Positions 21,200-55,249 of a DNA stretch of 64,000 nt are shown piece after piece. The DNA lies in assembly GCF_000151665.1 (NCBI RefSeq), contig NW_013171865.1:216001-280000 (forward strand), written 5' to 3'. The notes beneath the pieces were generated by a model, which worked only from the letters and a program-made list of their open reading frames with translations, did not search any database and was not told the origin of the DNA. Position numbers and translations under genes: made by a program. Source of the stretch: Blastocystis hominis. Taxonomy: Eukaryota > Sar > Bigyra > Opalinata > Blastocystidae. How positions within the stretch are numbered: position 1 is the first letter of the stretch; each line of letters begins with the position of its first letter.

Positions 21200-24100
21200 A
21201 TGAGTGATATAGAAAGTGAAAAGGAAGTTGCCCCTAGCACTGATCAAACAATGCCAAGGGAAGAAGAAAACGTGAAGTTAGAGAGAGGCCACTTTTGGGA
21301 AGGCAACCTCTCTGAGAAGTTTACCATTAAGGAATCTACGGAAAAAGATGGTCATTTCGATGTAGTGTTGGAAGAACCCTTTCAGGGTATTCGTGTCAAT
21401 ACAACGTTGCAGAACAACAAAATGCACGGAGAAACAACATTTACTTCGGAGGATGGAGTTGAACTCGGTAAATTGACTTTTGTGGAAGGAATTGCTACGG
21501 GACCTTGTACATTGAATGATGAGTCAGGCAAACTGTATTTCAAAGGAAGAATGGAAGAGGGATATCGCCAAGGTCGAGGAGCGGAATATGATGAGTCTGG
21601 CAATGTGACATTCGATGGTTTTTATGCCAAGGGAACCAAGCTTGAAAACATCGTTCCATTAGAAGAAGTGAGTGGATACTGGAAAGAATACAACGCCGAG
21701 CACAAATTGGTCAGTATTAGTCAGCGAGATGATTTCGGAAGAAAAGAAGGAATTTGCTATTTCTATGATGGTGAAGAGAAGATGGACCGAATCAGTGAAT
21801 GGAAGGAAGATAAGGAAGTATCCACTTCGGGTTATTGTGAGATATTCGACGAGCCGCGCAAAGTGTGGTATAAGGGTTATTTTGATAATGGAAAACGAGT
21901 CTTTACTGTTCCATTAGAAGAAAGAAAAGGATACTGGAAGGAGTGCAACGAAGACAACAAACTAGTTTGTATTTGTCGCAAAGATAAAGAAGGCAAGTAC
22001 GATGGTATTTGTTATTTCTATAACAACGAAAAGATCAGTCAAGTCAGCTATTGGGAGCATGGAAAGGAGGTGAGAGTCATAAAGCAGTTCAATGGCCTAA
22101 CAATGACTGAATACAACGATGAGAAGCAGAAGCTGTATGAAGGAGAATACCTAGATTCTTTTGAATTGGACTATCCCCGACATGGAAAGGGAACCAGTTA
22201 CAAGAATAACGAGGTCAATAAAAAGACGACTTGGCTAACTGGTTATTCGACACAGGGACTATTGCTGACATTCTTGGCAATAGTAATTGTGTTAGTTATT
22301 TTATTTGTGATAGATGTGATTTTGGGTCTTGTTGTTACAGCAATTGTCGACTTACTGGTTATTATTCGATGGAGTTGTCCTAAGCTGTTGGGTAGTAAAC
22401 TATGTAACAAGACAGACCTCCAGTTAATGGCAGATTACATGAAAACTAAATCTTCCAAGACTACAGAAAAAGAAAAAGAAACCGAAAAGAAAAAATCGTC
22501 TAATTGTTTTTACAATAACATTTATTTAACAATAACTGTTATTCTTTCTCTTATTATTGTATGTGTCTTAATTGGTGCCCATTTCTACTATTCTTTGGTG
22601 AATCCTTACGTGAGTGTGTTTCAAGGTACCTACAAAGTGGGGTCGAATAAACTCAACAAGCTATCTGGATTTAAGATTAGTAATAGAGCGTTGCTGAAGT
22701 CAATTGAAATTGGAACCGGTTGTTTTGAAGTTGCTTCTGTGTTCCAAATCAAGGGACTGAACTCGCTGAACTCTGTTAAGATCGGTTCGAATTCGTTTAC
22801 TGAGCAAAGAAACAATTTTGGAAATGATGGATCGAAATCATTCCATATTTTGAATTGTAAAAATCTACAATCAATCGAGATCGGTGAATATAGTTTTAGT
22901 GATTTCGGAGGTGACTTTGAGATAAAGAACCTTCCTTCTTTGAAATCTCTTGAAATAGGTGTGATGAACACATCATCCTATAATTTCTATTCTGTGAAAT
23001 CGTTTATTATTGAAGGTATGGAGCAGTATTTCTCAGGTTGGTAATTGAATAGATCTTCCTACGCTCAACACGATATCTTTTGGAGATTCTGCATTCTATG
23101 ATTTCCAGTTGGCTGCTTTCAATAGTAGGAAATATTATGAGTGTGAGTGCTAATGACTAGATCTTCCTGAATTGAATTCAATCAATCTGGGACAGCGCGC
23201 ATTCTATGGTAAACATGATATGTCTTGTGCATTGATGATGGAAGGTACGCCAAGTAATGAGTGATGTATAAACAATAGATCTTCCGAAGTTATCATCGAT
23301 CCATTCTGTAGGATATAGTTTCTATTATCCTCGCAATGTTACACTCAACAGTATTGCTAGATAGTAATTGTAATCATAATGTAGACATTCCTAATCTTGA
23401 AAGTGTGGAATTGCCAGACTCATTTGGATATTATTTTTACTTAACTGTAAATAGTATGTGTAAAACGATTTTTGTATAACGTGTAGATGTTCATGAATTG
23501 TTGTCACACTATGTGCCTAGCAATGTTTATCACATCGATGATTTGTATGAATCAGTGGATGTAATTCCATCGGATGCTGAAAAGATCATAGTGAAAGAGA
23601 ATTCTTTTGGTAATACTGAAACCTTATCAATCAATAACTACCCGAATTTGACATCTCTTGTATTTGAAGACAATACGTTTAAGAATGTGAATTCTGTGGA
23701 GATCAATGGAGATAATATCGAAGAAGTTGTTATTGGGGATAACTGCTTCTCGAAGTCGGAGTCTGGAGTGGAGGGAAGTAGAAGATTGGAGGATACGGGC
23801 AGTATTGATTTGACTCTTCCACATACAGAGCGCATTAGAATTGGAAGTAAGTCAGCACTGAATGTGAATACATTGGTGTTCAATGAGCTATTGGACAGTG
23901 TGGAATTTGAATTGGGTAGTGAATCGATGAGGAATATCAATTTGATTCGGTATAGTTACGGAATCTCAACTGATACAATTAACGGCATCAAAACGGCAAT
24001 TGAAAACAATAAAGGAGAAGGTGAGTCAATTGAAACGGAGACAATTAATACTCCTTCAGTTATTCCTACTACTGCAGCTCCTACTGAAGCGCCTACGACT

Positions 24101-27100
24101 CAGGTTCCTACTACCGAAGTTCCTACTGAAGCGCCTACGACTCAGGTTCCTACTACCGAAGTTCCTACTGAAGCGCCTACGACTCAGGTTCCTACTACCG
24201 AAGTTCCTACTGAGGTACCCACTACCGAAGCTCCTTCTACTGAGGTTCCTACTGAGGTACCCACTACCGAAGCTCCTACCGAAGCTCCTTCTACTGAGGT
24301 GCCTTCTACTGAGGTGCCTACTGAAGCTCCTTCTACCGAAGCTCCTTCTACCGAAGCTCCTTCTACCGAAACTCCTTCTACCGAAGCTCCTTCTACCGAA
24401 GCTCCTTCTACCGAAGCTCCTACCGAAGCTCCTACCGAAGCTCCTTCTACCGAAGCTCCTTCAACTGAGGTCCCCACTACTGTTGCTCCTACCGAAGCTC
24501 CGACTACTGAGGTGCCTACCGAAGCTCCTACTGACGAGGTACCTACGACTGAGGTGCCTACCGAAGCTCCTTCTACTGAAGTACCCACTACTGTTGCTCC
24601 TACCGAAGCTCCGACTACTGAGGCGCCTACCGAAGCTCCTACCGAAGCTCCTTCTACTGAGGTGCCTACCGAAGCTCCTTCTACCGAAGCTCCTACCGAA
24701 GCTCCTACTACTGAGGTGCCTACCGAAGCTCCTACTGACGAGGTACCTACGACTGAGGTGCCTACCGAAGCTCCTTCTACTGAGGTGCCTACTGCTTCTC
24801 CTACTACCGAAGTTCCTACTGAGGAAGTACCCACTACCGAAGCTCCTTCTACTGAGGTGCCTACCGAAGCGCCTACTGAGGAAGTACCCACGACTGAGCT
24901 GCCTACAACTCAATCTCCCACTACTGAGGCTCCTACAACTCAATCTCCCACTACTGAGGCTCCTACGACTCTGCCTCCCACTGAGGCTCCTACCACTTTG
25001 CCTCCTATTGAATGTGGCGAGAGACAGTTCGCGGTTACGGTTACCCGTACTTGTGGAAAGTTTGGATCTGAAGAATCGGTCAGCATTTATGAAGGAACTA
25101 TTTTATCTGGTAGTCGCGTTTATCAGGAGACTACTTGTACTGCTGGTACCTTCTATTTCTGCATGAGACCTATGCAGCACACGATTGTGTTGACGGATAG
25201 TGCTCGCGATGGTTGGGATATTAGCTCGTCTATTGTATTGAAGAGTGGAGGTATGTCTCTTTCTTACACTTTGGACACTGGAAGTTCTGTTACTTATTCA
25301 TTCAATCTGACTCCTTCTGGGGTTCCTACTGAACTTCCTCCTACTGCTGGTCCTACGACTGCTACTCCCACTACTGAGGTGCCTCCTACTGAGTCTCCTA
25401 CGACTGTTACTCCTACTGAGGCTCCTACGACTCAATCTCCCACGACTCTGCCTCCCACTGAGGCTCCTACCACTTTGCCTCCTATTGAATGTGGCGAGAG
25501 ACAGTTCGCGGTTACGGTTACCCGTACTTGTGGAAAGTTTGGATCTGAAGAATCGGTCAGCATTTATGAAGGAACTATTTTATCTGGTAGTCGCGTTTAT
25601 CAGGAAACTACTTGTACTGCTGGTACCTTCTATTTCTGCATGAGACCTATGCAGCACACGATTGTGTTGACGGATAGTGCTCGCGATGGTTGGGATATTA
25701 GCTCGTCTATTGTATTGAAGAGTGGAGGTATGTCTCTTTCTTACACTTTGGACACTGGAAGTTCTGTTACTTATTCATTCAATCTGACTCCTTCTGGGGT
25801 TCCTACTGAACTTCCTCCTACTGCTGGTCCTACGACTGCTACTCCCACTACTGAGGTGCCTCCTACTGAGTCTCCTACGACTGTTACTCCTACTGAGGCT
25901 CCTACGACTGTTGCTCCTACGACTCTTCCTCCCACTGAGGCTCCTACCACTTTGCCTCCTATTGAATGTGGCGAGAGACAGTTCGCGGTTACGGTTACCC
26001 GTACTTGTGGAAAGTTTGGATCTGAAGAATCGGTCAGCATTTATGAAGGAACTATTTTATCTGGTAATCCCGTTTATCAGGAAACTACTTGTACTGCTGG
26101 TACCTTCTATTTCTGCATGAGACCTATGCAGCACACGATTGTGTTGACGGATAGTGCTCGCGATGGTTGGGATATTAGTTCGTCTATTGTATTGAAGAGT
26201 GGAGGTATGTCTCTTTCTTACACTTTGGACACTGGAAGTTCTGTTACTTATTCATTCAATCTGACTCCTTCTGGGGTTCCTACTGAAATTCCCACTACTG
26301 CTGGTCCTACGACTGCTACTCCCACTACTGAGGTGCCTCCTACTGAGTCTCCTACGACTGTTACTCCTACTGAGGCTCCTACGACTGTTCCTCCTACTGA
26401 GGCTCCTACTACTCTGCCTCCTACTACTGAGGTACCTCCTACGACTGCTGCTCCCACTACTGCTGCTCCCACTACTCTTCCTCCCACTGAGGCTCCTACC
26501 ACTTTGCCTCCTACTACTCTTCCTCCTACTGAACCGATTCCTGAGTGCGGAGAGGACAAGCTGCTGCTCGAGATTATTCGTGTGTGTGGTACTTATCCTA
26601 GCGAAGAGCGAGTGGATATTTATCAGGGAACAGATCGTCCTTTCACTGGTACTCCTCTGTACAGTGAGTCTGTATGCACTGCTGGAACTCATTATGTATG
26701 CATCAACCGTGTTGCTCACACGATTGAGCTGCGTGATTCTGGCTATGATGGATGGAATGGTAATTCGCATGTTACTTTGAAGAGTGGTTACATGTCTATG
26801 ACTTACACTTTGACTGCTGGAGGTTCATATGCTTATCATACCTTTGATATGACTCCTACTGAGGCTCCTACTGAACCTATTCCCACTACTGCTCCCACTA
26901 CTCCTGCTCCCACTACTCTTCCTCCCACTGAGGCTCCTACCACTTTGCCTCCTACTACTCTTCCTCCTACTGAACCGATTCCTGAGTGTGGAGAGGACAA
27001 GCTGCTGCTCGAGATTATTCGTGTGTGTGGTACTTATCCTGAAGAAGAACGAGTGGATATTTATCAGGGAACAGATCGTCCTTTCACTGGTACTCCTCTG

Positions 27101-29821
27101 TACAGTGAGTCTGTATGCACTGCTGGAACTCATTATGTATGCATCAACCGTGTTGCTCACACGATTGAGCTGCGTGATTCTGGCTATGATGGATGGAATG
27201 GTAATTCGCATGTTACTTTGAAGAGTGGTTACATGTCTATGACTTACACTTTGACTGCTGGAGGTTCATATGCTTATTACAATTTTGATATGACTCCTAC
27301 TGCTGGTCCTACTGAATCTCTTCCTACTACTTTGCCTCCTACTGAACCTATTCCCACTACTGCTGGTCCCACTGAGGCTCCTACCACTTTGCCTCCCACT
27401 ACTCCTGCTCCTACTACTCTTCCTCCTACTGAACCGATTCCTGAGTGTGGAGAGGACAAGCTGCTGCTCGAGATTATTCGTGTATGTGGTACTTATCCTG
27501 AAGAAGAACGAGTGGATATTTATCAGGGAACAGATCGTCCTTTCACTGGTACTCCTCTGTACAGTGAGTCTGTATGCACTGCTGGAACTCATTATGTATG
27601 CATCAACCGTGTTGCTCACACGATTGAGCTGCGTGATTCTGGCTATGATGGATGGACTGGCAACTCGCATGTTACTTTGAAGAGTGGTTACATGTCTATG
27701 ACTTACACTTTGACTGCTGGAGGTTCATATGCTTATCATACCTTTGATATGACTCCTACTGAGGCTCCTACTGAACCTATTCCCACTACTGCTCCCACTA
27801 CTGCTGCTCCCACTACTCTTCCTCCCACTGAGGCTCCTACCACTTTGCCTCCTACTACTCTTCCTCCTACTGAACCGATTCCTGAGTGCGGAGAGGACAA
27901 GCTGCTGCTCGAGATTATTCGTGTGTGTGGTACTTATCCTGAAGAAGAACGAGTGGATATTTATCAGGGAACAGATCGTCCTTTCACGGGCAGTCCTCTG
28001 TACAGTGAGTCTGTATGCACTGCTGGAACTCATTATGTATGCATCAACCGTGTTGCTCACACGATTGAGCTGCGTGATTCTGGCTATGATGGATGGACTG
28101 GCAACTCGCATGTTACTTTGAAGAGTGGTTACATGTCTATGACTTACACTTTGACTGCTGGAGGTTCATATGCTTATCATACCTTTGATATGACTCCTAC
28201 TGCTGGTCCTACTGAACCTATTCCCACTACTGCTCCCACTACTCCTGCTCCCACTACTCTTCCTCCCACTGAGGCTCCTACCACTTTGCCTCCTACTACT
28301 CTTCCTCCTACTGAACCGATTCCTGAGTGCGGAGAGGACAAGCTGCTGCTCGAGATTATTCGTGTGTGTGGTACTTATCCTGAAGAAGAACGAGTGGATA
28401 TTTATCAGGGAACAGATCGTCCTTTCACTGGTACTCCTCTGTACAGTGAGTCTGTATGCACTGCTGGAACTCATTATGTATGCATCAACCGTGTTGCTCA
28501 CACGATTGAGCTGCGTGATTCTGGCTATGATGGATGGAATGGTAATTCGCATGTTACTTTGAAGAGTGGTTACATGTCTATGACTTACACTTTGACTGCT
28601 GGAGGTTCATATGCTTATCATACCTTTGATATGACTCCTACTGAGGCTCCTGTTTCTCGCTCGGTTGCTGCCTCCCAAGCCACTGCTTCATCTGTCAATT
28701 TCATTCCTCAATGTGCTGAGGATCAATCTTTGCTGGAGATTGTTCGCACTTGTGGAGTGAATAGCAGCGAAGAATCCTTCGATATCTATTATGGAATGGA
28801 GCCTTCGAGTTCAACCGAAGTATTTAGTCAGAGTTCTTGCATTGCTGGAACATATTATACATGCATTAGTCCTGTTGAACACACTTTAGTAATGCGGGAT
28901 ACAGGTCTGAATGGCTGGTCTTCGGGCTCTCTTTTGATTCTGAAGAGTGGAAAGGTTTCCTTGGCTTATGCTATGGAAAGTGGAAACGCCATTGCTCACA
29001 AGGTCTTCAATTTCGGTTCTGCAGTTGATCAAACTTCTGGTGACATCATGATGTCCGAAGACCGAATGAAAGTCACATTGATTCGTTCATGTGGCAACTC
29101 GTCTGATTCTGAAGGATTTGCGATCTATGAAGGTGCCTCGCGTGATCGCGCCATCTACCGCCAGACTCACTGCATTGCCGGTGTGGTGAATCTGTTCCTT
29201 TCTCGAGGTATTTACACGATTGTGATGACGGAAGCGAATGGAGAGGCTTGGGAACAGAATTCGGTGGTTCGTATTTTCAAGAATGGTCTGCTTGGATCGT
29301 ACAGAAAGACGGTGGTGGGTGCTGAAGAATCGAAGCACTTCGAGTGTGTTGCGGAGCTCACAACCTCGGAACAATCGCTGGTTGGAAGTGGAGTGGCTCA
29401 ATCGAGCAAGGCGAGCATGACTGGTTACTCGGTTGAGAACCTGTTCGATAACTCGGTTTCTACCAAATATCGCGTCGCTGTGACGAGCTCGGATTTCCCT
29501 GTGGAAGTGACCTACACGTTCCCTGATGGCAATGAATACACGATGAACAAGTATGTGCTCACCAACGGCGATTCGACGGCTGCTGCTTGCAACACGTGGA
29601 AGATCTTCGGTAGAAAGAACGAAGATAGCAACGAATGGGTGATGCTGGATAGCCAGGATAGTGTGGAATGGAGCGAAGGCAATCAGTCGCTGAGCTTCAC
29701 TGTGAACAATGCAAGTGCTTTCAATGCTTACATGTTCCAGTGCAGCGCGGTTGTGAATATCGATGACGAGAATAACGGAAGTCAGTTGGAAATGGCGGAA
29801 TGGAAGTTGATCCAAGCTTAA
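21200..29821 (+). CDS. Giant MORN-TM-LRR-mucin-like-modular surface protein
   Basis: Five introns (23016-23052, 23125-23160, 23245-23278, 23351-23384, 23454-23486; all phase 1) give 2,815 residues. Order: acidic N-terminus; MORN-type repeats (about 75-340, e.g. YFKGRMEEGYRQGRG); hydrophobic segments at about 351-390 and 441-466; LRRs from 474, the last ones one per exon; a Thr/Pro/Ser/Glu stalk (about 890-1,213); ten related Cys-containing modules of about 100 residues (three type A, five type B, two diverged) spaced by TPT linkers; and a C-terminal F5/8 type C-like domain (from about 2,674) with WKIFGRKNEDSNEWVML. With an odd number of membrane passes, about 2,350 residues would be outside and the MORN part inside. 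Likely an adhesin or glycan-binding receptor; unproven. Final exon of 6.3 kb is intronless. Confidence 0.85.
24040..25012 (+). repeat. TPTEAP-type mucin-like tandem repeat stalk
   Basis: About 320 residues built from short units such as TEAPTT, TEVPTEAP and STEAPSTE, encoded by nearly fixed codons (CCT ACT GAA GCT). The DNA is a 12-21-nt minisatellite with higher-order blocks. Such tracts are normally heavily O-glycosylated and extended. Long open frames on the other strands here are only by-products of the repeat. Confidence 0.9.
25003..26280 (+). repeat. Three near-identical type A modules of the giant protein
   Basis: Units start at about 25,003, 25,478 and 25,957 with IECGERQFAVTVTRTCG and are almost identical in DNA over about 300 bases; only a few codons differ (SRVYQE against NPVYQE). 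Each has Cys pairs, a conserved TDSARDGW and a C-terminal beta-strand pattern SLSYTLDTG. Separated by TPTE-type linkers of variable length. Confidence 0.9.
26530..28640 (+). repeat. Five near-identical type B modules of the giant protein
   Basis: Units at about 26,535, 26,979, 27,436, 27,880 and 28,322 start PECGEDKLLLEIIRVCG and contain ELRDSGYDGW, the counterpart of TDSARDGW in type A. Differences are few (PSEER/PEEER; GWNGN/GWTGN; GTPLY/GSPLY). Two diverged members follow at about 28,700 and 29,050. Confidence 0.9.
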
Positions 29822-29868: not shown

Positions 29869-32396
29869 CTACAACAATGCGTCAAAGTATAGAAATGAAT
29901 TGCAATGTTTGTTGAAAGAAACACACAACAGATCAGGATGCACAGAACGGAAGCAATCCATATAACTCTCATAGGTGATCTCGCCGTTCTTACTCTCGCT
30001 GCGCGCCATTTCCTGGATCAACAGCAACTCCTTGATCGGCACTCCCATGGTAATCTCGGAAGACACCTTCGCGATCACTTCTTCGCTCATGCCTCCAGTC
30101 TTGCGCAGCACACTCGCGACATCCTGCGACGCGTACGGCACCGGAATGTCCTTGATCACGTTGAACGGCTAGCCCTCATCCCCGTCCCTCGTCCCTACGT
30201 CCATCAGGCCCAACTCCTCCATTGCCGTTCGCTGCGAGGTCGTCGCGATGATCATCAGCTTCCGGCCCTCCGTGGGCGGGATCTTCTTGATCAGAACCAG
30301 CAGCGCCTGCAGCACCGCGTTGCTGAAGCGCGGTCCCAGCCGCACGTACTCCACCAGCCGCTCCAGATCGTCCAGAATGATCATCGACAGCGGCGATTTG
30401 TAGGCGTCCTGGAAGATGGCGGAGATGCGGCCCGCCTTCGAGCTGTCGGCGGCGCCGAGCAGCATATCCGCCGAGATGAACTTCACGAACGGGAACTTTG
30501 ACTCCACGGCGAGGTACGCGGCCAGCGCGGTCTTTCCGCAGCCTACACGTCAGTCCGGGCGCTCGCTTGGACCCTGGATGCCGTCCAGACAGACCGACAT
30601 GAGCGGCGTCTGGTCGGAGTTGCGGACCTGGTCCACCATCGTCATCAGCTCGGCGTACAGCTTCTTGAACTCCTCGGAATACTCGATGATTCCGTTGCGG
30701 AAGCGGATGGACAGCTCGTCCTTCTCCAGACCGAACGCCGGCTGCACTTCCTGCAGCGCGCGCTGGAAGTCCTGCCAGGTGACGCGCATCTTCTCGGGGT
30801 CGATGGAGACCTTGGTGAGGTTGTTGATGTCCACCTCGCGCTCCAACGCGAAGGACGACGCGCTCTTCACCAGACCCTCCAGCTCGGCGCCCGTGAAGTT
30901 CTTCGTCAGCTCGGCCAGCGCGTTGAGATCCACGTCGTCGGCGAGGTAGCCGTTGCTGCGCATGGTGTTGGTGTGGATCGAGAGAATCTGCACGCGGCCC
31001 TCGTGCGAGGGCAGGCCGATCTCCACGTGGACCTCCAGACGGCCCGGACGCAGCAGCGCGGGGTCGATGAGGTCTTTGCGGTTGGTCATACCGATGATCA
31101 GCACGTTGTTCAGCGCCTCGACGCCATCGATCTTGGACAGCAGCTGGTTGACGATGCTGTCGTGCACGCCGGTGCCTACTCCTCATCCTCCCGACGAACA
31201 AAAACCATCGCCGTTGGCGCCTCGCGACTTGCAGATCGCATCGATTTCATCGAAGATGATGATGTGCAGGTCGCTGTTGTCGCCCATCTCCTCCTGCTCC
31301 TTCTCCGCGTCCTCGAACAGCGCGCGGATGTTCGCTTCCGACTCGCCCACGTACTTGTTCAGGATCTCCGGGCCGTTCACCACCTTCGGCTCGTGCGCGT
31401 TCAGCGCCTTCCCGATCTGCCGCGCAATCAGCGTCTTACCGCAGCCCGGAGGGCCGTACAGCAGCATGCCGCGCACGTGCTTGATGCCCATCTTGCGCAG
31501 CACTTCCGGAGGGAACACACGCGACGCGAACGCGCGGCGGAAGATGTCGGCGAACTCCTTGTCCAGACCGCCGATGCCCATCGCCTGGAAGTTGAAGCCG
31601 CGCTCGAAGAGACGGCTGTTCCCGCTGCTCGAGCCGCCCTGGATGCGGATCGCAGCGTCCTTCTTCTTCTTGAAGAGCAGGGTCGACGCCTTCACGAGCT
31701 GGCCGCAGGGACGGCCGAGGACCGGCTCGGATTTCTGGCCTTCGATCTCGATGAACTCCATGCCCGTGCAATGCAGACGGAGCTGCAGACCTTCCAGGTT
31801 GCAGGCAAGCTGAGAGTGAGGAGGGCGGGGAGAACAGCGGTACGAGCTGGTCGGTGCAGAACATCTGGCGACCGTAGAGATCCTTCATCAATGTGGTGAG
31901 CTTGTCACAATCGACATCGATCGGCTAGGGGTGATGAATGGGGAGCTGGGATCGAACCTTTCCGGAAGTGTTCTTCTTGAGGAGCTCGATCTCGAAAGTG
32001 ACATTGTTGAGGCAGCGAATGTTCTCTTCAGGGTACACAGAAACCTCGATTTCCTTATTATTCGCAAGCTGAGCGCACATTCTCTGCAACATACCGCAAG
32101 CCAGCTGATGTCTCTCCATCCCTTCAAACGGCCTGACAGATGACACTCCTTCAATCATAACAAACCTTGCCGTGAACACAAATTCGTTCACCTGGATGAG
32201 AACACCCGCTTTTGTATCGTCAATCTTTCCAGCGTCATTCGCGAGCTAGGAATCATAAGATCCTATGGATCCCACCTTGTCGTAGTCTCTTTCGCTCACG
32301 TAAACACAGTTTGTATAACTACCTATTATCACACCAAAAGTAGGGCTACGCAAGACTATTATTTGGCAAACCAACAACCTTAAATGTGCGACCCAT
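29869..32396 (-). CDS. NSF: N-ethylmaleimide-sensitive factor (NSF), SNARE-disassembling AAA+ ATPase
   Basis: Eight introns (30-34 nt) give up to 758 residues, the usual NSF length. N domain (1 to about 190) begins [21 protein letters not shown]1 carries Walker A GPPGCGKT (about 263), Walker B IIIFDEID and the second region of homology [19 protein letters not shown]2 has Walker A GIQGCGKT (about 547) and Walker B IILDDLER. It uses ATP to take apart SNARE complexes with SNAP adaptors on membranes of the secretory pathway. The last codons (after CFRSVHPDL) diverge from the family and run into TGTGTTTC, so a stop made by polyadenylation after CTG T is possible; otherwise the encoded stop is at 29869. 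Confidence 0.95.
29906..29913 (+). terminator. Polyadenylation octamer of the giant gene
   Basis: TGTTTGTT on the plus strand, 84 bases after the TAA of the giant gene, inside the 3' end of the convergent NSF gene. Confidence 0.65.
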
Positions 32397-51888: not shown

Positions 51889-53309
51889 ACTCCTGCGGGA
51901 TTTCAGTGGCTCCTATTGCATAGCAGTCTAAATCCTTCGAAAGTGAAGGTAGGACTTCCGCGGTTATCGGATCTTTTGATGGGAAATCAATAATTAGTCA
52001 TTATGTATGAAAAGAAACATAGAATATATTATTCGATTCGGTCTTTGAAAGATTCATTCCTATCACATCACTATGGAATAAACGTATTCAATTCTACTAC
52101 AGCATAAAGAATTTGGAAAATATGTGTTTTGAGGTGTGATATTCTTGCCTTATAATTAATAAGAAATAAAAAAGCAATAAGATATTGTCTCTTCATTTGA
52201 AACCGAGTATTGAACAGTCATCTAGAAAAAGAATACAAGTTATCTATATATAAATATTACATTTAAGTATATTCGATTAGTTAGTGAATAGAAAATGCAC
52301 GACTTCTCTAACTCTTCGGAGCAATTTTCGAGAAGGTACAATTATTGATAATTACAATACTTTCTAATGAATTTGGATTGATTAGCATTATTCCTTGGTG
52401 AGATCTTGAGAATGACCCATACTTGTTTGTAATGAGCGTTGTTGAGAGTGAAAAGTATAGTCATTTTATTTATTACCTACTGTTCTAAACATTTTCTGTA
52501 GTTTTCGTTTGTTTCGTGTTACATTCACCTTTATTACCGTAGTAATCAAGTGTATCCATCAACCAAAAGAAAATACAATAATGTACTAACAAGGCCACAA
52601 AACAGTATTTGAAAATAGTATGACTTCATAATAATAGTTCAAAACAAGTTCACCAAACTGTCATTGGCATTTGTAGTTCACCACCATTCGAGTTTGAAGT
52701 ATAATAGGCATTTTCTTGCCATTATTGAGCATTACTGGTTACACGAACAATAGTGATACTGTGGGTTACATATTACACTGTTCACGATGATTTGAATCAG
52801 TCATCTCACTATCTAATATCAAACTTGGTATTATCATCTTGCATAATAGGAATAAATGTAGCAGATTGCGTAATAGATAAAAAGAGTTGTTCAAAGTGTT
52901 TTTGAAGAAAAACAACAACACTCATAGCAGAAGCATATGATCATGAATATTTAACAATGAATATTGATAAGAAGCATACCAAAATGCGTGATTGTACATC
53001 CATTGTGTTTCAAGTCGAGAATATAGCTCCAGCTTGTAATTCCATTCAATAGGCATAATGGCAATTCTTCACATAACTCAATCTACTGTGTGAATAAGAC
53101 AATTATGGTAGTATTCACAAAATGACAAAATCTGTCCACTCTTTACTTCTACTATTCCTATTATTGTTCAAATCAGAATATCATACTAGTATTAAGAAAA
53201 GAATGTACAATGCAACAATAAGAATTATAATGGAGAGAAAATTATACTGGAATCAAATAGAGAAGAGATTCGTTTCATTTTGGTGTTTTTTTCCATATTA
53301 TCATTATTT
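51889..53309. other. AT-rich intergenic stretch
   Basis: About 1.4 kb with long AT-rich runs and no frame, splice pattern or RNA gene that I can support. A lone CGTTTGTT-type octamer at about 52508 (plus strand) might mark the end of a short transcript. The end of the stretch is a low-complexity Leu/Phe frame that appears non-coding. Confidence 0.45.
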
Positions 53310-55249
53310 ATGGAATTATCTACAGATTCCGGAATTAAATTAGATTATATTGTCGAAATAAAACCATTGGACGTGTCTCGTGACCTGGGAAAGGAATCTG
53401 GGTTTGAGGTTGATATTTGGAATTGGTGTATTACCAATCAATTCCCTATTAGTACTATAGATAAGATTGATAGTGAGAATGTGATTCTGAACATTGGTTC
53501 TCCACATCAAGGTTACACTATTCAAACGAAGATGAAAGATGGGAAATTAAATGGGGGAGCTATTATCAAAACAACAAACAATAAGATAATAGCAGAATTC
53601 GAATATCGAAGTAATGAGATAAAGGGACAATGTAAATTGTATTATGATTCAGGCGAATTATATTTTGAAGGGAATCTTGAAGATGGATATCGTCAAGGAT
53701 TTGGAATAGAGTATGATAAGAATGGGAATGTGATATTTGAAGGTAGGTATGAAAAAGGATGTCGAGACAATCATTGTGAAAGAATGGATGGAATGGAAGG
53801 TTATTGGAAAGAATTGGATGGGAATGGAAATGTGATTTCGATTTGTCAAAAGAATGAAAAAGGAATGAATGAAGGACTGTGCCTCTATTTTGAATCAGGA
53901 TTACTGGATCGAGTCAGTATTTGGAAAAACAATGAAGAAATATCGATTTTATATCGATTTGAAAATGGCAAAATGATAGAATACAAAAATGGTGTAAAGT
54001 GTTTTGAAGGATACTATGAAGGTTCAATTGAGAAAGGATTTTCTCGACAATATGGAGTTGAATATGATGAAGAAGGCAAGAATGTGATTTATGAAGGTGA
54101 ATTCCTGAATGGAAAACGATGTGGACGAGGAACATCTTAAAAACAATGAAAGAGAATATGATGGAGAATGGGTGAACGGAATACCAAAATCAGAGTATAT
54201 ACTGTTATTTGCAATAATTCCAGTAATATTCGGGCTATGTATTGTTGTACTGACATTCATTTTACCAATACCAACATTCTTGCAGTGGTTAATAATGTTA
54301 CCAGTAATCACTTTTGGATTAATATTCCTTGATTATATTTGGAAGAATGTATGTGAAGGAATCATAACAAAGGACTTTTATCCTAGAGTATCTAGTAAGA
54401 GATACATATATGAGGGGGAACATGTCATATTTGAAGATGAATGCTATTCCAAAGTGCAAACATTCAAAATCGATGGATTGAATCGATTGAAAACTATCAA
54501 AATCGGAATCAATTCATTCACTCAGAAAAAGAATGGGTATGGAGGTGATGAATCGAAATCATTCCACATATTGAATTGTGGATCATTGGAATCCATTCAA
54601 ATTGGTGAATTCAGTTTCAGTGATTTTGCTGGCGACTTTGAATTGAAGAATCTACCACAATTACAATCCATTCAAATTGGTATAATTGGTAGTTATTCAA
54701 CCAATTTCTATTATAGTTCATTTGTGATTCGAGGTATTGATTTGATATTGTATATTTGAATGCATAGATCTTCCAAATCTACAATCCATTACATTAGGTG
54801 ATTGGGCGTTCTGTGGATCCTCATCAATAATAATTGAAAGTATTGAATAAATGAGAATGAAATGATTGATGTAGATCTACCATCTCTACAATCCATTCAA
54901 CTCGGTATTAAGGTACTTTGTGGAAGAGGGGATAATAAATCAAGTTCATTGATAATGCGAAGTAATAATGAATTGATTGATTATGATTTGATTTGTAGAT
55001 CTTCCAAATTTAACATCAATAACTTCTGTACTATTTAGTTTCCTGTATTCTCGTGTAGTGACATTGGAAAGTATTTCTGAATATTGAATATTGATAGTAT
55101 TTAGATATTCCAAATCTTCAAAATGTTGATCTACCTCGTTCATTCGAGTATGTTCGATCGAAATCAATTTCGAGTATAGTTTGATTGATTTGATTTGATT
55201 CATAGATGTTTCTTCCATTCTCGCTGATCTTATCGAAATCGATGAGTAA
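53310..55249 (+). CDS. MORN-TM-LRR family gene with a frame break
   Basis: Paralogue of the giant gene's N-terminal 700 residues. It has MORN-type repeats (LYYDSGELYFEGNLEDGYRQ matches the giant protein's LYFKGRMEEGYRQ), hydrophobic segments (LLFAIIPVIFGLCIVV), then LRR exons separated by phase-1 introns of about 32-37 nt, each starting D/N-LP-L. The last exon ends IEIDE-TAA (55247-55249). At 54140 the frame is broken: relative to the giant gene's GTSYKNNE, two bases are missing between GGAACATCT and AAAAACAATGAA. A non-standard 56-nt intron ending GAG could bypass it, so decay is likely but unproven. There is no stalk or module region. An octamer follows at 55338. Confidence 0.6.

Follow-up and report, generated by a model that had tools for sequence, protein, structure and literature searches.

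We consider it probable that one gene in the window, the 64,000-nucleotide stretch of Blastocystis hominis DNA analysed here, encodes a membrane protein with its N-terminus inside and its C-terminus outside, a likely surface adhesin or receptor from a family whose members exchange cassettes. After removal of five GT..AG introns, positions 21200 to 29821 of the forward strand translate as 2,815 residues and a stop, in six exons and with no internal stop. The introns lie at 23016 to 23052 (37 nt), 23125 to 23160 (36 nt), 23245 to 23278 (34 nt), 23351 to 23384 (34 nt) and 23454 to 23486 (33 nt), lengths that agree with the figure of around 32 nt published for ST7 (PMC3129679). All five are in phase 1, and each splits a D or N codon that is followed by LP, LP, LP, IP or VH. 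We read the exons between them, exons 2 to 5 at 23053 to 23124 (72 nt), 23161 to 23244 (84 nt), 23279 to 23350 (72 nt) and 23385 to 23453 (69 nt), as symmetric phase-1 units carrying one leucine-rich repeat (LRR) apiece.

The splice sites are supported from two further directions. In a locus alignment, all five are common to the paralogous loci L009, L012, L014 and L015; compared with the window gene, L012, L014 and L015 contain indels within the introns and none within aligned exons, the exon gap columns for L014 and L015 in the intron-identity alignment being the start points of cut pieces. In addition, the database protein P0003 is 76% identical to the window protein and runs without gaps across all five junctions, so that it derives either from a processed transcript or from a copy without introns. 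The five introns and the single spliced frame over 8.6 kb that an earlier note had claimed for this DNA were thus borne out. A copy of TGTTTGTT, the published polyadenylation motif of Blastocystis (PMC5608401), stands at 29906 to 29913 on the same strand, 85 nt beyond the coding end. The gene lies on contig C15 of the genome searched (40 contigs, 18.7 Mb), and its neighbours encode ribosomal protein L3 (576 bits) and, on the opposite strand, an AAA ATPase.

The protein begins with a MORN-like region (residues 1-333; 21200 to 22198), predicted to be cytosolic; the hydropathy profile shows no hydrophobic N-terminal start. Two long hydrophobic stretches follow: residues 346-394 (22235 to 22381), which we read as a two-helix hairpin with a D-x-x-x-G turn, and residues 436-469 (22505 to 22606), a putative third transmembrane (TM) segment. 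Between them lies a K-rich loop, also predicted to be cytosolic (residues 395-435; 22382 to 22504), with 11 K/R and 6 D/E in residues 394-440. Two LRR blocks, recognised by matches in relatives, close exon 1 (22607 to 23015) and open exon 6 (23487 to 24040). Next comes a stalk of 322 residues (24041 to 25006), defined by its composition (30% T, 22% P, 18% E) and by tandem arrays.

Ten modules joined to the stalk were detected by a profile derived from the copies in the window itself. Modules 1-3, of type A, lie at 25007-25318, 25484-25795 and 25961-26272 (span 25007 to 26272), and type B comprises modules 4-8 at 26537-26860, 26978-27301, 27437-27760, 27878-28201 and 28319-28642 (span 26537 to 28642); T/P linkers separate the copies of both types. 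Module 9 occupies 28703 to 29017, and module 10 (29045 to 29350) is divergent, being 25% identical to module 4. Eight of the ten are underlain by arrays in the DNA, one of 477 bp x 3.0 (97%) and one of 441 bp x 5.0 (94%). An F5/8 type C-like domain (29351 to 29818), assigned through a bridging relative on contig C9, ends the protein. There are 41 Cys after residue 930, and three of the 15 sequons fall within the MORN part.

These domain labels rest on bridging relatives because the window pieces themselves miss Pfam cut-offs. Window pieces gave no match to the MORN repeat (PF02493/PF07661) up to E 10. Among relatives, P0004 is above the cut-off for both PF02493 and PF07661, and L030 scores 22.5 bits for PF02493 at a cut-off of 22.5. 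SET7/9, radial-spoke, T. brucei MORN1 and junctophilin appear in the fold comparison for the MORN part, with non-MORN proteins ranked among them (SdgB/TarM with Z to 7.2, OspA to 6.7). The window LRR piece hit LRR_EndoS below the cut-off (E 0.0098), and an LRR unit of locus L034 reached 26.9 bits for LRR_4, against a cut-off of 27. The BspA-like family LRR_5 (PF13306) did not match the window gene, all four matches in the genome being at C37:159372-160553, and a scan of eight window pieces listed no He_PIG. Similarly, PF00754 was not listed for the F5/8-like domain itself in the Pfam scans. C9:383132-383461 matches this domain at 39.4 bits (E 6.5e-9), and C9:383132-383521 scores 31.1 bits for PF00754, above the cut-off of 28.2; through this bridge, the end of the window protein is significantly related to a domain that passes for F5/8 type C. 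Both AF2 models are of low confidence (mean pLDDT 44.5 and 51.7), and the F5/8-like end falls mostly below pLDDT 40.

A hairpin followed by one TM segment would place the MORN region and the loop inside and everything from the LRRs onward outside. This is the most economical topology, and it agrees with the earlier note, which held that MORN repeats usually face the cytosol and that such stalks and discoidin-like domains are extracellular. A hydrophobic stretch of 42-55 residues with a central D/N-x-x-x-G is present in all nine family sequences measured, and in each a K-rich loop with 8-12 K/R and 3-7 D/E separates it from another hydrophobic stretch. A third hydropathy peak in the window protein, at residues 2600-2618, was not accepted as a TM segment; it barely passes the threshold (1.64) and lies inside module 10.

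Several observations count against the proposed topology. The first hydrophobic stretch is a single long helix (residues 351-392) in the AF2 model, in which case the topology would flip, and three sequons lie within the part predicted to be cytosolic. The same window also holds a short MORN-hairpin-LRR paralogue (53196-54759, forward strand) with no evident third TM segment in the frames seen, whose LRR would thus be cytosolic. Together with the appearance of junctophilin-2 in the fold comparison, the continuous helix and the short paralogue would suit a protein with an even number of crossings, its LRRs and modules on the MORN side, or an internal-membrane protein resembling a junctophilin-like tether. 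We regard such arrangements as unlikely. A stretch of 42-55 residues is long for one pass, the D/N-x-x-x-G recurs in every sequence measured, and the Cys-rich modules and stalk fit the secretory route. Moreover, in L026 a weak module match (28 bits, E 3.9e-5) starts at residue 21, directly behind a signal-peptide-like start, and at least this module would therefore enter that route.

Frame evidence argues for one gene from the MORN region to the F5/8-like end, from which we infer a single transcript. Exon 6 lies within a stop-to-stop open frame of 2,113 codons that runs from LRR2 to the end. L011, on contig C4, carries a MORN region, TM segments, an LRR fragment, seven modules and an F5/8 domain in a single frame without interruption, 1,401 codons long or 1,398 when counted from its first ATG. 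The first 470 residues of P0001, a database protein from a different contig, share 98% identity with L011, and P0001 shows 84% identity to the last 382 residues of the window protein; it so spans both ends of this order in one frame. The order originally described, namely MORN, TM, LRR, stalk, ten modules and F5/8-like end in one continuous spliced frame, is supported. Two or more transcripts, one for a MORN-TM-LRR protein and another, begun at an internal start, for the modules as a protein of their own, would accommodate both the modules found on other N-termini (L010, L016-L019) and the C-terminus of P0003, which falls ten residues past the expected start of the stalk and leaves P0003 silent on the remainder of the protein. 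Given the single frame of exon 6 and the union of both parts in L011 and P0001, we consider this very improbable. The failure to find TGTTTGTT between 20171 and 29906 also speaks against it and adds little, because composition predicts only 0.24 occurrences in the gene.

The gene is not the one-off chimera that it had first been taken for; six paralogues, this gene among them, combine a MORN/TM base with the F5/8-like end, and they sit within a much larger MORN-LRR family. The MORN, TM, LRR and F5/8 queries for the genome search were window pieces, and the window therefore matches them by construction. The F5/8-like end gave 27 matches in total, with seven close loci at 239-335 bits and the next at 80 bits or less. 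Six of the seven have the MORN/TM base under this end (the window, L009, L011, L012, L015 and L014), of which L014 shows a TM match and LRRs only because its upstream part is masked. The seventh, L010 (C40, reverse strand), has a papain-like base (Peptidase_C1, 45.9 bits). Module counts are ten in the window, five in L009, seven in L011, three each in L012, L015 and L014, and six in L010; L011 has neither LRR2 nor a long stalk. L030 and, where readable, L029 share the MORN-TM-LRR-stalk base and have other or masked ends. Among the matches listed, the wider family comprises at least 112 LRR clusters and at least 87 MORN clusters on 28 contigs, and at least 32 of the MORN clusters are followed within 3 kb by an LRR match.

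Three further features of these loci were observed. Papain-like domains head module proteins at L016-L019 as well as L010, with a Pfam match in L010 and none in L016; a Ser occupies what we take to be the usual position of the catalytic Cys in L010, which suggests a pseudo-enzyme. A domain of ~300 residues (PWFPIYDPF...) follows T/P-rich stretches in L030, L012, L013, L016 and L017, and its L012 copy has no Pfam match. Finally, in L034 (C40:147300-155000, reverse strand) a MORN-TM gene is followed by thirteen LRR1 matches, a tandem amplification of an LRR unit; eleven of the intervals between them measure 440 bp and one measures 446 bp.

Comparisons at the DNA level indicate that the window gene is a mosaic. 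Identity to L009 is 98-99% in LRR1, the intron block and LRR2, and 95-97% in modules 1-8; where modules 9-10 align it is 77-79%, and where the F5/8 end aligns it is 83%. Against L012, those portions of MORN and TM that align are 69-70% identical (with the first 500 bases unmatched), the intron block is 93% identical, and modules 9-10 reach 89-93%. L010, whose N-terminus is unrelated, matches modules 1-8 at 95-98%. For the introns alone, identity to the window is 174/174 bases in L009, 170/174 in L029, 160/174 in L030, 157/170 in L012, and 84/161 in L014 and L015; L029 and L030 reach only 68-77% where their MORN and TM parts align. Because the introns are more alike than the adjoining coding sequence, recent exchange or conversion of the intron block seems likely, and the pattern is hard to explain otherwise.

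Synonymous differences between the window gene and L012 vary likewise: they amount to 0.77 per site in the MORN part (saturated), against 0.12 for LRR2 and 0.28 for module 10 together with F5/8. Over the segments compared (MORN, TM plus LRR1, LRR2, and module 10 plus F5/8), dN/dS was 0.07-0.44 in eight of 11 comparisons, the other three being saturated. Slightly less probable even than separate transcripts is an assembly chimera of repeated paralogues, such that no single molecule of this kind exists: near-identical cassettes make up the mosaic gene, and repeat arrays are prone to mis-joins or wrong copy counts, but P0001 joins MORN-TM to modules-F5/8 in one frame on a different contig, L009, L012 and the strongly diverged L015 keep the same order, and dN/dS is low in the segments compared.

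Protein searches over limited length ranges returned no protein from NCBI that represents the window gene. A public Blastocystis hominis protein, P0016 (397 residues), corresponds to the final part of a longer frame at L014, with 963 further open codons upstream; the match covers the first 300 residues of P0016, the L014 piece stopping before the stop codon. This case points to under-annotation, and it agrees with our suggestion that exclusion of repeats from gene prediction concealed the MORN-LRR family. The reference gene set would then miss repeat-rich surface genes. Literature searches, which did not extend to subscription papers or preprints, returned nothing combining Blastocystis with the MORN repeat and, judged by title, nothing on such a family for Blastocystis and leucine-rich repeats.

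How might such a protein work? A cytosolic MORN platform would lead through the hairpin, the K-rich cytosolic loop and the third TM segment to an outer LRR base, from which the T/P/E-rich stalk, probably O-glycosylated, would raise the ten Cys-rich modules and the F5/8-type end off the cell. The most likely role is that of a cell-surface adhesin or receptor, in which the repeated modules and the discoidin-like tip may attach with avidity to glycans or to a second surface, and the MORN part would oligomerise or be tethered to the cortex. A published argument sees MORN repeats as modules for oligomerisation and for interaction between proteins, not as lipid binders (PMC7725318), and we therefore favour a cytosolic clustering platform beneath an adhesive ectodomain. 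Mucus binding and signalling to the inside, both raised in the earlier note, are candidate functions. Exchange of LRR, module and tip cassettes between loci would diversify binding. A broader proposal, which we offer only tentatively, is that of a recombining surface-receptor repertoire in which one-LRR exons, module arrays and tips are cassettes gene-converted between scattered loci on a conserved MORN-TM base, most of this repertoire being absent from the reference annotation since repeats were kept out of gene prediction. How Blastocystis attaches to its host has been described as little known (PMC4031124); a large family of modular membrane proteins whose outer parts can be exchanged would supply named genes for studies of attachment and for tests of strain differences.

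The protein can be compared with several known systems. The 2011 Blastocystis ST7 genome paper reports 26 genes for putative adhesion proteins with He_PIG (IPR008009) (PMC3129679). L027, a large protein of the same genome, scores 65.4 bits for He_PIG and has weak module matches (18 and 25 bits); L020 and L022-L025 are loci with module and F5/8 matches, and of all these the He_PIG scan covered L027. Unlike the window gene, L020, L022-L025 and L027 have no same-strand MORN or LRR match (some being cut pieces), and L027, unlike the window protein, has a hydrophobic segment at its C-terminal end. The likeness to F5/8 type C (discoidin) proteins is carried by the C9 bridge, the window domain itself being below PF00754. 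Junctophilins and MORN1 scaffolds, which appear in the fold comparison, have a MORN region like that of the window protein, near the membrane in junctophilins; to our knowledge they have no outer LRR, stalk or modules. BspA-like LRR surface families are large in the mucosal protists Trichomonas and Entamoeba and have a probable surface role. The window family resembles them as a large LRR gene family of a mucosal protist, again with a probable surface role, whereas the window gene differs in having no LRR_5 match and in combining a MORN platform with a module/F5/8 end.
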